Assembly (NCBI GenBank): GCA_017461775.1
Contig: JAFTXD010000050.1
Location: 1 to 32,828 of the forward strand
Length of the DNA stretch: 32,828 nt
Reading direction: 5' to 3'
Origin: Lachnospiraceae bacterium
GTDB taxonomy: Bacteria > Bacillota > Clostridia > Lachnospirales > Lachnospiraceae
In this document: piece after piece, positions 3,621-29,611 of the stretch
How positions within the stretch are numbered: the first letter of the stretch is position 1
Layout: each line of letters starts with the position of its first letter
Position numbers and translations under genes: made by a program
The notes under the pieces: model-generated
Database searches by the model: none
Told to the model about the DNA's origin: nothing
What the model saw: the letters and a program-made list of their open reading frames with translations, nothing else

Positions 3621-3629
3621 ATTATACCA
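3621..3629 (-). promoter_or_regulatory. Extended -10 promoter for the LytTR regulator
   Basis: On the minus strand the sequence TGG-TATAAT lies about 25 nt before the start codon and forms an extended -10. No good -35 is seen; that position is occupied by the inverted repeat GGATTGC...GCAATCC. Confidence 0.6.
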
Positions 3630-3630
3630 C

Positions 3631-3758
3631 GGATTGCTTCGCACAATGTGCTCTCGCAATCCTAAAATATGAGAAATATGCCCTGTTCGGTCTTCTTTCT
3701 CATATTTTGAAGGTCTCAAAGTCATGTTTTTTCATGCAAGCATGAAACACATGACTTT
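3631..3758. repeat. Cluster of three strong inverted repeats
   Basis: Three palindromic structures follow one another. The first is GGATTGC/GCAATCC with inner GCAC/GTGC (3631-3662). The second has perfect 13 bp arms (3664-3676 with 3696-3708, AAAATATGAGAAA type). The third has 10 bp arms AAAGTCATGT/ACATGACTTT enclosing 8 bp TTTCATGC/GCATGAAA (3718-3758). No coding frame is supported. The first overlaps the LytTR promoter and could be an operator. The others could be terminators for the DUF1294 gene side, cruciforms or a small RNA. Confidence 0.6.
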
Positions 3759-3788
3759 TATACCTAGTGTTATATATATTGTCGCTTT

Positions 3789-16176: not shown

Positions 16177-18312
16177 ATGCGTAGACCACTTTTATTTGCC
16201 TGTGTCTGTGTGACCGCTGTCATATATTTGTATATGTGTATAGTTAACCCGCCGCCCTGGGATGTGACCGACATCCCCCAGGCGGGGGAGTATGTAACAG
16301 TAACCGGGCAAATCTACAAAAAAGAAAATCAAAACATCTATTATCTTCAAGATATCTCTATTCAGGGGCATTCTCGCAGCCCATCCATTCAAAACAATAT
16401 CCGATGTGAATTACAGCAGCATATGGACCTTCCTCTTGGTACCCTTGTCAGATTAGAGGGAACATTTCAGCCCTATGAGTCTGCGGGCAATCCGGGGGAA
16501 TTCGATGCTGCTGTGTATTATGGAATTCAGGATATCTGCGGCAGAATTAAGGGGGGACAGATCACCCACGCGGGGCAGAGCTATTGGCCGCTTAGGCAGT
16601 GGCTTTACGAAACAAGGGAGCTTTTTGCAAAACGCCTTGTGGATGCCTTCGGAGAAGAGGATGGAGGCATTTTGGTAAAGATGCTATTGGGGGACGGGAG
16701 CCTTTTAAGCAGCGAAATCAAGACCTTATATCAGGAAAATGGCATCGTGCATGTGCTCAGTATCTCCGGTCTTCATATCTCCATGCTGGGAATGGGGGTA
16801 TACAGACTACTTAGAAAATGCCGGAGAAGTATTTATACCAGCGCTCTGGCCGGAGCTGTGTTTATACTTCTTTACGGAACCATGATTGGCTTTGGTCTGT
16901 CGGCCACCAGAGCCATCGGTATGTATCTGATACATATGCTGGCCGTTATCTGGGGGAAAAGCTATGATATGCTCACTGCCATGGGGGTACTGCTTCTGAC
17001 CATGATTCTGGAGAATCCCCGGGTGCTTTTTCATTCCGGCTTTTTGTTGTCCTTTGGCTCCGTGTGTGGGCTGGGACTTTTACTTCCCAGACTAAAGGAA
17101 TATATTCCACGTTTTTCATCTCTTATCGTCAGCCTGGCGGTGACGATTTTTACCTTACCGGTACAATTCTATTATTTCTACAAAATTCCAATGTATAGTG
17201 CTTTTCTAAATCTGCTTGTGCTTCCCTTTTTAGGTATCGTGATGGTGATGGGAATTGTTGTGATGACATTGCCTTTCCTGCATCATCTGCATGTGGTTGG
17301 CAGTTTTGTGCTGCGATGGTATGAACTGCTTTGCCACCTCTTCGAACGACTGCCATTTCACACTCTTTATGTAGGATGTCCGCCGGTATGGAAGATTGTG
17401 ATTTTCTATGCGGGACTGGTGTTTTTTATCTGCTATAAGCCTAAGAAAAAAGGAAAGTGGCCACTGTTGATACCCATTGCTCTGACGGTGTTTCTATGTG
17501 TCCAGATAGTGCCGCCTTTGCGGATGGTGCTCTTGGATGTGGGACAGGGGGACGGTATCCTTTTGCAGACAAAGTGGGGAAATATACTGATGGATGGTGG
17601 CAGCAGTAGTAAAAGTGATGTGGGAAAGTATCAGATAGCACCTTGTCTTAGTTATTACGGAGTAGATTATCTGGACGCAGTGGTGATTACCCATCCGGAT
17701 AGTGACCATATGAACGGACTGGAGGGACTTCTGGAGAATGGATATGAGGGGAGAATCGGAAGGATTTTGTTGCCGGACATTGAGGTGGGCAGGCGCAGTG
17801 CGGAGTTTGGAGAAATCTATGAGCTGGCAAAGGCTTATGAGATTCCCGTGGGCTTTATGGGAGCAGGGGATGGGATGAGGTTGGGAGAGGTACATCTGGA
17901 ATGTCTGCATCCGGACAACGGCTCTTCCATCGAAGAGAGCAATGCCTATTCCCAGGTGTATTATCTGAACTATGAGGACTTTACCATGCTCTTGACCGGG
18001 GATGTGGAGGAGGAAGGGGAAGCATTGCTTTTGGAGGAATTGCAGAGACGGGATATTGAGGAGGTAACTGTTTTAAAGGTGGCGCATCATGGCTCGAAGT
18101 ATTCCACTAGTGAGGAGCTTCTAGCGCAGATTACGCCAAGGCTGGCGCTGATTTCCTGCGGCGAAAATAATTCCTACGGGCACCCACACGGAGAAACCTT
18201 GGAGAGACTTGATGCGGTGGGCTGTGAGGTGCTAACTACACCGGAATGTGGGGCGATTATTATAGAGATGGGGAAGGAGGTGAAAGTGAAAAACTGGAGA
18301 AAATCCGACTAG
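16177..18312 (+). CDS. comEC: ComEC/Rec2 DNA uptake channel
   Basis: ComEC carries single-stranded DNA across the membrane during transformation. The 711-residue protein has an N-terminal membrane segment and DUF4131/OB-like region (about 1-150). The Competence domain of many helices follows (about 170-430, including ISGLHISMLGMG and GLSATRA). The C-terminal metallo-beta-lactamase-like domain (about 445-700) has LLDVGQGDGILL, ITHPDSDHMNGL and LLTGDVEEEGE. The full length and intact motifs suggest a working gene. AAAGGGGAAG precedes the ATG. It ends its operon, and its last codons and stop lie inside the first hairpin of the array that follows. Confidence 0.96.
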   Translation: MRRPLLFACVCVTAVIYLYMCIVNPPPWDVTDIPQAGEYVTVTGQIYKKENQNIYYLQDISIQGHSRSPSIQNNIRCELQQHMDLPLGTLVRLEGTFQPYESAGNPGEFDAAVYYGIQDICGRIKGGQITHAGQSYWPLRQWLYETRELFAKRLVDAFGEEDGGILVKMLLGDGSLLSSEIKTLYQENGIVHVLSISGLHISMLGMGVYRLLRKCRRSIYTSALAGAVFILLYGTMIGFGLSATRAIGMYLIHMLAVIWGKSYDMLTAMGVLLLTMILENPRVLFHSGFLLSFGSVCGLGLLLPRLKEYIPRFSSLIVSLAVTIFTLPVQFYYFYKIPMYSAFLNLLVLPFLGIVMVMGIVVMTLPFLHHLHVVGSFVLRWYELLCHLFERLPFHTLYVGCPPVWKIVIFYAGLVFFICYKPKKKGKWPLLIPIALTVFLCVQIVPPLRMVLLDVGQGDGILLQTKWGNILMDGGSSSKSDVGKYQIAPCLSYYGVDYLDAVVITHPDSDHMNGLEGLLENGYEGRIGRILLPDIEVGRRSAEFGEIYELAKAYEIPVGFMGAGDGMRLGEVHLECLHPDNGSSIEESNAYSQVYYLNYEDFTMLLTGDVEEEGEALLLEELQRRDIEEVTVLKVAHHGSKYSTSEELLAQITPRLALISCGENNSYGHPHGETLERLDAVGCEVLTTPECGAIIIEMGKEVKVKNWRKSD

Positions 18313-18656
18313 CGAAAGAAAACGCTGACATAGTCGGAGCGTGTAAAGTAGAGTTGCCCGACTCAGGAGAGAAAAAATCCGAAGTGGTCGGGGAATTTGA
18401 CAACCTGCTCCCCGATTTGGTGAGAAAAAACATCTAATGGTCGGGCAATAGAAGTGTAAGTGGACCGACTGAAATGGAGAAAATGCGAGATAGTCGGGTA
18501 GACCAGGAGTAATTTGCCCGACTAAAAGATAGAAAACGTGTCGTAGTAGGGGAAGAGGACAAAAAGGAGTCCGACTAAAATGAGTAATATGTTAAAAAAG
18601 CGGAGAGGCAAGCAAAAAATGCCCGATTATAAATGTCAAAATACAAAAAGGTCGGA
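18304..18656 (+). repeat. Array of seven 53-nt-period hairpin repeats
   Basis: This roughly 350 nt non-coding stretch holds seven imperfect palindromes. Left arms start near 18304, 18357, 18411, 18464, 18517, 18570 and 18622; right arms end near 18338, 18392, 18445, 18498, 18551, 18604 and 18656. The CGA of the left arm recurs at 18306, 18359, 18413, 18466, 18519, 18572 and 18624 (steps 53, 54, 53, 53, 53, 52). The right-arm TCGG core follows each at 28-29 nt. Typical arms are TCCGACTA/TAGTCGGA or CCCGATT/GGTCGGG. Most units have an A-rich centre (GAGAAAA); the rest of the interior and the linkers of about 18 nt vary. It is directly upstream of, and in the same orientation as, the nuclease-like gene. 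Confidence 0.85.
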
Positions 18657-18706
18657 ATTAGCGATATGTAAAATATGAGATTAATGAAAAGTAGGAGGTA
18701 TTTCTG

Positions 18707-19510
18707 ATGAAAACAGTGGAATTAATGCTTTGTAAAGAGAAGGCTCAGCTTGAGAGGAATGTGCAACAAGTAAAAATGCGGTTGCAGAATGCCCCAGAAG
18801 GTCAATTACGCATTTCAAAAAAGCGCAAAGGGGTGGAGTACTATTACAAGAATTCTGATATTAGTAATCAAAATGGAAGGTATGTGAGAAAAGAAGAGAG
18901 GGATCTTGTTAAGGGAATAGCTCAGAGAGATTATGATATCAATGTATTAAAACATGCAGAGGAACGAATAAAAGCTATTGAATCTTTTTTAAAGAAATAC
19001 AAAGCGACAAGCCAGGAAGAGGTATCTAAGAAAACAAATGACTATCGGAAAAGTCTTTTGGATAATTATGTTATGTCTGATGAAGAGTATATAAAACAGT
19101 GGCAGGAAGTAACATACCAAGGAAAGGCATTTGCGGAGGATGCACCGGAGATTATTACGGAAAGAGGCGAACGGGTCAGGTCGAAATCAGAGAAAATAAT
19201 TGCAGATAAGATGTACATGCTAGGAATACCATATAGATACGAATATCCCCTTGCATTAATCGGGAACGTGAAAGTGTATCCCGATTTTACAATTCTAAGG
19301 ATGCCTGAACGAGAAGAGGTTTATCTGGAGCACTTTGGGTTAATGGACAATAGTGATTATGTTGACAACATGATATTTAAAATGAAAACGTATGAAAAAA
19401 ACGGGATATATCTTGGTGTGAATTTTTTTATGACATATGAAACCGGAAGGGAGCCGTTGAATACAAGAATGTTGGATGCGTTTTTAAAAAAGCTGTTTTG
19501 CAAAGAGTAA
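18707..19510 (+). CDS. PD-(D/E)XK nuclease-like protein with coiled-coil N-terminus
   Basis: This is a 267-residue protein that I do not recognise by name. Residues 1-110 are charged and helical, probably coiled-coil (KEKAQLERNVQQVKMRL; HAEERIKAIESFLKKYK), around a basic segment KKRKGVEYYYKNSD. Residues 155-265 look like a PD-(D/E)XK fold: E162 (RSKSEKIIAD), D193 (YPDFTIL), E208 (VYLEHFG), then K225/K227 and LGVNFFMTYET. The lysine normally two residues after the second acid is absent (EHF). Codons are visibly more A-rich than in neighbours, which suggests transfer. GTAGGAGG precedes the ATG. It follows the hairpin array; a bidirectional terminator follows it. A DNA or RNA nuclease role is inferred. 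Confidence 0.75.
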   Translation: MKTVELMLCKEKAQLERNVQQVKMRLQNAPEGQLRISKKRKGVEYYYKNSDISNQNGRYVRKEERDLVKGIAQRDYDINVLKHAEERIKAIESFLKKYKATSQEEVSKKTNDYRKSLLDNYVMSDEEYIKQWQEVTYQGKAFAEDAPEIITERGERVRSKSEKIIADKMYMLGIPYRYEYPLALIGNVKVYPDFTILRMPEREEVYLEHFGLMDNSDYVDNMIFKMKTYEKNGIYLGVNFFMTYETGREPLNTRMLDAFLKKLFCKE

Positions 19511-19515
19511 TACAG

Positions 19516-19545
19516 ACTGGGCGAAAAGATTCCTTCTCGCCCAGT
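19516..19545. terminator. Bidirectional terminator between convergent genes
   Basis: ACTGGGCGA and TCGCCCAGT form a 9 bp GC-rich stem between the nuclease-like gene and the convergent glycosidase gene. A short T/A-rich tract follows (TTATTA). Confidence 0.7.
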
Positions 19546-25190: not shown

Positions 25191-25545
25191 GCTGTGTATA
25201 TAAAAATATGCCTGCCGGGCTGTGGGGGATGGGGTAAACGAGTGGGAGCTGTGGCGATGGGGGATTATTTTTATCAGGTTCCAATATTAAGTTCTTCTAA
25301 GATTTTTGCCAATGTATATCGAATAGCCACGCGTCGGAGGCAATGCGCGTCCATGCGCAGTGCCTCCTAAACCGAGCGTCCATGCTCGGTTTCCGCTGAT
25401 AGTGAAGCAAAAATCTAAGAAGAACTAAATATTTCCACATTCAAAAAATAATCCCCCATCGCCACAGCTCCCACTCGTTTACCCCATCCCCCACAGCCCG
25501 GCAGCATATTTTTTCAAACTAATTTGTAACCAATAGGCCCGGACA
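25177..25545. repeat. Large nested inverted-repeat element with twin GTCCAT-loop hairpins
   Basis: Non-coding. From outside inward: a 10 bp helix (25177-25186 with 25536-25545, TGTCCGGGCC/GGCCCGGACA), and perfect 60 bp arms (25213-25272 with 25444-25503). Next come a 10 x 10 nt internal loop and a 27 bp stem with two mismatches (25283-25309 with 25407-25433). At the apex are two hairpins (25336-25367 and 25369-25392) that share the hexaloop GTCCAT but have different stems (GGAGGCA.TGCGC and AAACCGAGC). No transposase or open frame is present. As RNA it would be one very long rod with a two-headed tip. A related half-copy lies at 32705-32828. Confidence 0.85.
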
Positions 25546-29454: not shown

Positions 29455-29525
29455 AGCCCTTTGGTCTAATGGTAGGGCACCAGATTCTGACTCTGGTGAT
29501 GTTGGTTCGAATCCGGCAGGGGCTG
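29455..29525 (+). tRNA. tRNA-Gln (CTG)
   Basis: The full cloverleaf is present. The acceptor AGCCCTT pairs with AGGGGCT and the D arm is GTC/GGC. The anticodon stem CCAGA/TCTGG encloses TTCTGAC, giving anticodon CTG. The T arm GTTGG/CCGGC encloses TTCGAAT. The discriminator base is G, and CCA is not encoded. Confidence 0.93.
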
Positions 29526-29529
29526 TTAT

Positions 29530-29611
29530 GGATGGGTTGCCTAGCGGCGAAGGCGGCGGACTGTAAATCCGTTACAAAGAAACAACGTAGGTTCGAGTCC
29601 TACCCCATCCA
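29530..29611 (+). tRNA. tRNA-Tyr (GTA)
   Basis: This is a class II tRNA with a long variable arm. The acceptor GGATGGG pairs with CCCATCC. The anticodon stem CGGA/TCCG encloses the loop with anticodon GTA. The T loop TTCGAGT lies in a GTAGG/CCTAC stem. The discriminator base is A, and CCA is not encoded. It lies 4 nt after tRNA-Gln, so the pair is transcribed together. Confidence 0.94.

Follow-up and report, generated by a model that had tools for sequence, protein, structure and literature searches.

Helically phased repeat arrays beside a PD-(D/E)XK-like gene suggest an undescribed nuclease-and-repeat system in gut Lachnospiraceae

A 32,828 bp stretch from a Lachnospiraceae bacterium (assembly GCA_017461775.1, contig JAFTXD010000050.1, positions 1 to 32,828; here called the window) contains a tandem array of seven imperfect palindromes directly upstream of a gene for a 267-residue protein, P0001, with a PD-(D/E)XK-like nuclease domain. 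The association of array and gene is not local to the window but family-wide, and repeats cognate to the protein are scattered at extragenic positions in all three genomes checked (the window's own, G328 and G282). Taken together, the sequences suggest an undescribed, DNA-acting nuclease-and-repeat system of gut bacteria, in which the array most likely works as double-stranded DNA (dsDNA) with protein on one face. The features read from sequence that carry this suggestion are the association itself, the helical phase of the periods, a constant two-arm module, covariation of arms and protein, arrays in trans with a fixed arm geometry, and a conserved motif set in the protein.

The array, the nuclease-like protein and their association

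The window array lies at 18304..18674 on the forward strand, with seven units of 52–54 bp at 18304..18356, 18357..18410, 18411..18463, 18464..18516, 18517..18569, 18570..18621 and 18622..18674 (unit starts spaced by 52–54). It overlaps the end of comEC (16177..18312, + strand, from the list of open reading frames, or ORFs), whose stop codon is inside unit 1, and ends ~30 nt 5′ of the 267-codon nuclease-like gene on the same strand (18707..19510); the purine-rich strand of the array is the coding strand. The inverted arms are CCGACT and AGTCGG, and both are exact only in units 1 (18305–18310 and 18332–18337) and 4 (18465–18470 and 18492–18497), the other units being degenerate (in unit 6, the right arm). 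A preliminary description of the window reported seven imperfect palindromes with a period of ~53 nt between comEC and a nuclease-like gene, and this is confirmed by the spacings as well as by two computations. First, there is a chain of five palindromic units (≤1 mismatch per arm, step 52–54), where 300 dinucleotide-preserving shuffles reach ≤2. Second, the autocorrelation has its top score of 22 at lag 53, compared with 11 at any lag in one shuffled copy. The arm-to-arm distance, described as constant at 28–29 nt, is indeed near-constant but counts as 27–28 nt from start to start in the six units with both arms readable.

P0001 consists of an N-terminal region and a C-terminal nuclease-like domain, and has no significant match in Pfam, NCBIfam, PHROGs or PDB (no PDB sequence below E 0.3). 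Two PADLOC profiles match its C-terminal part (PDC-S68, 1e-23; HEAT_CxxC_PDDEXK, 5e-7), and the PDC-S68 nuclease profiles match all 124 aligned homologues, which represent 124 of the 154 usable proteins after dropping near-copies, the most distant rows and a few others. Twelve residues are invariant in all 124: S159, K160, E162, Y178, E179, D193, F194, E208, H209, G211, Y218 and E245. These include the E...D...(D/E) pattern of the PD-(D/E)XK superfamily in E162, D193 and E208, followed by H209, and we take E162, D193 and E208 to be the active site. The nuclease-like label given in the preliminary description is thus backed by both the profiles and the invariant acidic residues. The PDC-S68 profiles are ~1200 aa long and just their last ~120 positions match the homologues; the similarity does not extend beyond the nuclease domain, and this domain has further matches in proteins annotated as RecD-like helicase and AAA ATPase. 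Two records in a phage collection match the protein, and five records in a plasmid collection and nine matches in viral contigs cover the nuclease domain only. One of the two phage records, a contig of 4212 bp from human faeces (MT839528.1), encodes a 33% match over 85% of the protein.

Homologues are present in 104 of 299 sampled genomes of the window's family and in 151 of 397 genomes of a later, overlapping sample; many of the sampled genomes are fragmented. A second, named collection has homologues at 53 loci, mostly in Lachnospiraceae, with some in Treponema and Fibrobacter and one in a member of the Coriobacteriia. In a phylum-wide sample 22 of 398 genomes match, and the full-length matches are all from the window's own family. 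The 163 loci include near-duplicates (e.g. L049/L103, L025/L045, L052/L082, L041/L050), and the 158 with at least 300 nt of upstream sequence were used to count the association. A tandem array (period 40–120, within ≤1500 nt) is present upstream in 93 of these 158 loci and downstream in 20, and the share with an upstream array grows with identity to the window protein, from 2 of 11 below 30% to 17 of 23 above 40%. As background, 326 kb from 14 family genomes lacking a homologue (20 stretches, of which four are contigs shorter than 3 kb) has two arrays of period 40–120, both off phase. Because the window array itself scores 22 and is missed at the detector threshold of 25, the array counts are conservative. 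The proposal that array and gene belong together is borne out, and the pairing is found again, with arms of other sequences, in many relatives.

The position next to comEC also recurs. A comEC-like end is found, by reading, upstream of the gene at L031, L032, L002, L003, L004 and L051, and comEC homologues are present in 29 of 31 genomes of the genus. Relics of the nuclease gene lie beside comEC in G304 (one stop) and G301 (three stops), and at L178 and L182 the gene after comEC reads as holA; the nuclease-array unit has thus been gained or lost at the comEC site. At L186 (genus genome G300) comEC is followed to the contig end by repeats with GGGGCAT/ATGCCCC arms, a different arm type in the same place, and the region upstream of L006 has both a 53-bp array and ~45-nt repeats resembling the 5′ end of the nuclease gene.

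Helical quantisation of the periods and geometry of the repeat

The periods of 96 upstream arrays of period ≥40 (the first set) form clusters at 52–54, 62–64, 72–75, 83–85 and 94, and 92 of the 96 are within 2 bp of n × 10.5, where an even spread would give 44%. The L048 homologue of Pseudobutyrivibrio sp. MD2005, a cultured isolate, has a period of 52. When the modulus is left free, a scan peaks at 10.4 with a resultant length of 0.86 (0.85 at 10.5); relatedness is not accounted for in the Rayleigh p values. At a fixed modulus of 10.5, 13 of 16 arrays are in phase in a later set of 27 loci, comprising genus relatives and two paralogues from the window's own genome. Among 25 further loci from newly drawn genomes, 20 have a repeat, 18 of them with a period ≥40, and all 18 are in phase, giving 31 of 34 for the later sets combined. 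These later sets are mostly held-out, with the arrays of L221 (G328) and L228 (G306), two of the 16, known beforehand; several of the new genomes are from genera already sampled and the loci were chosen away from contig ends. At one locus of the later sets, L165, GGTAC-type arms can be seen by eye on either side of the gene. Parsimony on a quick tree (124 proteins, 84 scored arrays) gives 24 changes of turn class, four of them to off-class arrays, and near sisters can differ by about one turn, for example L087 (74) and L093 (83), or L030/L113 (62) and L126 (73). A test of spacings within arrays found only five odd spacings. Steps of one B-DNA turn have no RNA explanation that we know of, and the quantisation of the periods by n × 10.5 is the reason for placing protein on one face of dsDNA rather than invoking RNA hairpins.

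A gap analysis of 45 arrays (period ≥60, arm score ≥2.5, arm ≥6), with 16, 25, 2 and 2 arrays in the classes of 6, 7, 8 and 9 turns, indicates what is fixed and what varies. The short inter-arm gap, which is by construction the smaller of the two, is constant across these classes (means 18.6, 18.8, 19.5 and 20.5), while the long gap grows (26.7, 35.8, 44.5 and 57.5). A two-arm module of ~37 bp is thus fixed, and the spacer shifts by whole turns. Naive distances from arm centre to arm centre show no phase because the arm ends are ambiguous, and the gap analysis was used instead. The preliminary description took the hairpin interior and the linker between hairpins as the variable parts; the interior is indeed the variable spacer across the family, but the constant part is the two-arm module surrounding that linker.

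Palindromic arms, as first described, are seen in the window and in many other arrays, but in some arrays the arms are mostly non-complementary. By regular expression, 51 of 62 arm pairs in G328 and 8 of 9 in L002 contain a mismatch; the arms are perfect in G282 and many others. Purines make up a share of ≤0.40 of the coding strand in 8 of 92 arrays, which inverts the usual composition, and the linker word AGCAAGT is mildly enriched, occurring in 17 of 92 arrays compared with 4.5 in shuffles and 4 in controls. Units within one array are often near-identical. Between homologues the arm sequences differ, and arm similarity climbs solely for proteins of more than ~50% identity; the resulting correlation of arms with protein sequence is significant but weak (Mantel r 0.15, 0 of 2000 permutations, 68 arrays).

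Cognate arrays elsewhere in the genomes

In the window's genome the same arms recur, at a ~53-bp period, in three more arrays on contigs C134, C86 and C74, and homologues of P0001 are found only on C21, C66 and C83. In G328, of the same genus, the nuclease-array locus again follows comEC, and there are nine more arrays on six contigs, one of which has just two or three units. Among the 31 genus genomes, matches to the repeat unit (E≤1) number 32 in G000, 30 in G328 and 9 in G306, each of which has the comEC-linked gene (divided between two contigs in G306); the unit model was built from units of the window's own genome and favours G000. There are 0–3 unit matches in 27 other genus genomes, which include those with the relics (G304, G301) and one with a partial gene (G322). 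The preliminary description had regarded arrays found just as often near unrelated genes as an argument against the pairing; this holds in part, since there are arrays beside unrelated genes, but those of the window's genome, G328 and G282 match a nuclease of the same genome.

The complete genome G282 shows the fixed geometry most directly. A search with the exact arms of L148, allowing gaps of 22–40, finds five places besides its own array, always with a gap of 30, and the exact arms of L130 (gaps of 16–36 allowed) occur at five further places with a gap of 29, once 30; a reversed-pattern control gave no matches in this genome. Allowing up to three mismatches enlarges the L148 set to six arrays with 29 units in all and three further sites standing alone. 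The conserved block is TGTACCATAT, a poorly conserved linker and ATATGGTACA, followed by a 30-bp spacer. Spacers are 0.73–0.93 identical within five of the six arrays and 0.28–0.63 identical between arrays, the lowest of these values being at the level of shuffled sequence (~0.3). The arms have thus stayed fixed as the spacers drifted, and the value of 0.63 (the array at 2313k with that at 2362k) shows a distant copy relationship among some of the scattered arrays. Near the tested arrays at L250, L251 and L258 there are repeats of other types (GTGGGGTAGAT, TACCCCATGG and ATTACGGA/CCGTAAT, by eye), for which no cognate nuclease was identified.

By tblastn, the three scattered loci of the window's genome and the ten G328 loci have no flanking protein in common, and the positive control recovered the comEC locus shared by the two genomes (comEC 41%, nuclease 61%). 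Gene orientation around the arrays, taken from a simple ORF caller, is clear for 19 of 21 scattered arrays, of which 16 lie between co-directional genes, three between convergent genes and none between divergent genes. The neighbours of L255 and L258 in G282 are ambiguous, and would count as divergent should short or overlapping ORFs prove real. Nine products encoded beside scattered arrays include two clear GNAT-like Pfam matches and one just under the cut-off (L173, L247, L238 and neighbours); a MATE transporter, a glyoxalase-like protein and an AAA domain protein are also encoded beside them. Several scattered arrays of G328 (L234–L243) end alike, in a similar unit and a tail of ~35 nt ahead of the next gene, which looks like copying with a defined right end, and AGTAGGG ends some arrays, in G328 only.

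Several other features of the window are noted here. An inverted repeat directly 3′ of the nuclease gene (19516..19545, + strand) could, as a guess, mark a transcript end; a terminator scan found no terminator-like site. Rfam matches above the gathering score lie at 3622–3772 and 25276–25439, both on the reverse strand (Clostridiales-1 RNA and TwoAYGGAY RNA), and two adjacent tRNA genes are at 29455–29611.

Comparison with known systems and possible roles

Two reports on REPtrons describe a nuclease gene next to cognate palindromes that alternate in orientation, are scattered and intergenic, co-vary with the protein, and track the gene in abundance (PMC2817692, PMC8266576). A resemblance to these pairs of repetitive extragenic palindromes and their associated tyrosine transposases (REP/RAYT) was proposed in the preliminary description, and it holds for the layout and for the scattering of cognate arrays over the genome, but not for the type of protein. 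The likeness comprises a gene adjoining cognate palindromic repeats in alternating orientation, scattered intergenic arrays in the three genomes checked, covariation of repeat and protein (by the Mantel correlation), and abundant unit matches where the gene is present (G000, G328, G306). In contrast, the 16 Pfam families with a match in at least one of the 124 members (E≤0.01) include no Y1/HUH family, the members being PD-(D/E)XK-like instead. There is also no general GTAG head, and by inspection no tetranucleotide is common to the arms of different arrays. Nor are the genes flanked on two sides by inverted repeats, arrays being mostly upstream (93 of 158 loci, compared with 20 downstream), and in the counted cases there are ~30 unit matches per genome. 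A further difference is that whole-turn spacing and the non-pairing arms of some arrays make dsDNA a likelier substrate than a single-stranded DNA hairpin; the phasing and the mismatches in G328 and L002 argue against the hairpin, and other arrays have perfect arms. The system works like a REPtron but is not one, failing on protein superfamily, GTAG head and two-sided flanking.

We favour, at a little better than even confidence, a nuclease-repeat system that works like a REPtron with a different protein and a helix-phased dsDNA target. The protein would bind the arms on dsDNA as an oligomer, cooperatively and along one helical face, and its nuclease domain would cut at or near the arrays. Breakage and repair could then let arrays expand, homogenise and reach new intergenic sites, and the cell may tolerate or use them, as proposed for REP and bacterial interspersed mosaic elements (BIMEs); the array 5′ of the gene may also control its expression. 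A more specific version, to which we give somewhat less than an even chance, is a new class in which a PD-(D/E)XK protein polymerises on one face of dsDNA along bipartite sites spaced at whole turns, with several orthogonal protein-array pairs per genome, copying and maintaining arrays genome-wide as a selfish or domesticated dsDNA counterpart of the REPtron.

Several observations weigh against this explanation. No upstream array was detected at 65 of the 158 loci, with the proviso that the detector also misses weak arrays such as the window's. In the window's own genome the paralogue on C83 has no detected array and that on C66 has one of period 81, while G305 has six unit matches and no nuclease was found in it (59% complete). 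Periods of 45, 56, 70 and 71 are off phase in the first set, as are 81, 90 and 100 in the later sets (L165, L227, L223), and well-supported branches of the tree force fewer changes of turn class (for class 5, for example, 3 of 9, and for class 7, 10 of 14). G282 has three nucleases, and of the 15 arrays of period 40–120 in 400 kb of its sequence only 7 are in phase, with three of period 45 and two of 71; phase thus characterises gene-adjacent arrays more than tandem repeats at large. That the nuclease spreads the arrays is deduced from positions not shared between two species and from diverged spacers.

A regulatory, sequestration or chromosome-organising role is also conceivable. One possibility, which we regard as unlikely, is a regulon in which the protein is a DNA-binding regulator, its own array a cooperative operator and the scattered arrays operators of other genes. 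This would account for the array upstream of the protein's own gene, for the 12 scattered arrays of the window's genome and G328 that precede a co-directional ORF (as called by the simple ORF caller), and for the three of nine neighbour products that are GNAT-like, one just under the cut-off. However, none of the 19 clear scattered arrays is between divergent genes and three are between convergent ones (L255 and L258 being ambiguous), and a repressor would not need invariant nuclease motifs. We prefer the REPtron-like explanation to a regulon because the nuclease motifs have been retained and no scattered array with clear neighbours sits in a divergent promoter region.

A decoy, addiction or defence function, in which the arrays hold a toxic nuclease on DNA and either array loss or invading DNA frees it, is also improbable. 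The nuclease domain is related to the C-terminal domains of the PADLOC candidate defence proteins PDC-S68/S69 and HEAT_CxxC_PDDEXK, and scattered arrays would increase binding capacity, but the PDC-S68 likeness is limited to this domain, with its matches to RecD-like helicase and AAA ATPase, and relic genes persist beside comEC in G304 and G301.

Less probable still is a role in chromosome organisation, with the phased arrays acting as centromere-like or BIME-like sites for bridging or topology and the nuclease-like protein as the binder. The sopC partition centromere of the F plasmid is built of tandem 43-bp repeats with an inverted repeat in each and a period near whole turns. Arrays of the window's type share this build; they are also scattered, intergenic, helically phased and of fixed arm geometry, which fits the role, and they differ from sopC in occupying several places per genome, in having a nuclease-like candidate binder, and in varying from 5 to 9 turns between relatives. 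PMC2817692 reports BIMEs as protein-binding sites. The presence of two or more arm types within a single genome (G282), the patchy distribution (151 of 397 genomes) and the lack of positions common to two species do not fit such a role.

In type III toxin-antitoxin loci (ToxIN) a tandem repeat array is 5′ of a nuclease gene, and by analogy an RNA of hairpins transcribed from the array might neutralise a downstream endoribonuclease. Tandem repeats directly 5′ of a nuclease-like gene on the same strand and perfect arms in many arrays fit this idea, which the preliminary description raised together with a guide function, but we consider it very improbable. The periods follow whole turns of B-DNA, arm mismatches are frequent in G328 and L002, strand composition is reversed in 8 of 92 arrays, and arrays occur in trans beside unrelated genes. 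Membership was rejected on two further counts: the window array has no Rfam match at gathering score, and the protein, of another kind than that of ToxIN, matches PD-(D/E)XK-containing profiles. A CRISPR or other guide array was likewise rejected, in agreement with the initial view that this is not CRISPR, as spacers are copied with the units within an array (five of six G282 arrays) and no Cas family is among the Pfam or PADLOC matches of P0001. Ordinary tandem duplication next to a functionally unconnected gene, which near-identical units within one array might suggest, is barely credible given the association, the phase, the conservation of arms in trans, the low background, and the later set, which kept both phase and association.

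Among the literature matches listed, there were no such arrays and no PD-(D/E)XK protein with phased repeats, which does not establish their absence from print. That the spacing rule survives many changes of period class on the protein tree is an uncommon signature of a protein reading one helical face, and it turns the question of function into a direct experiment, namely lengthening the spacer by 5 or by 10 bp. The system also offers candidate DNA-recognition pairs of differing specificity. If the REPtron-like explanation is true, bacterial genomes would have a second way, based on an unrelated protein, to gain and keep populations of short palindromic repeats, the problem posed by REP/RAYT, and a class of intergenic repeats found in gut Lachnospiraceae and in some Treponema would be accounted for.

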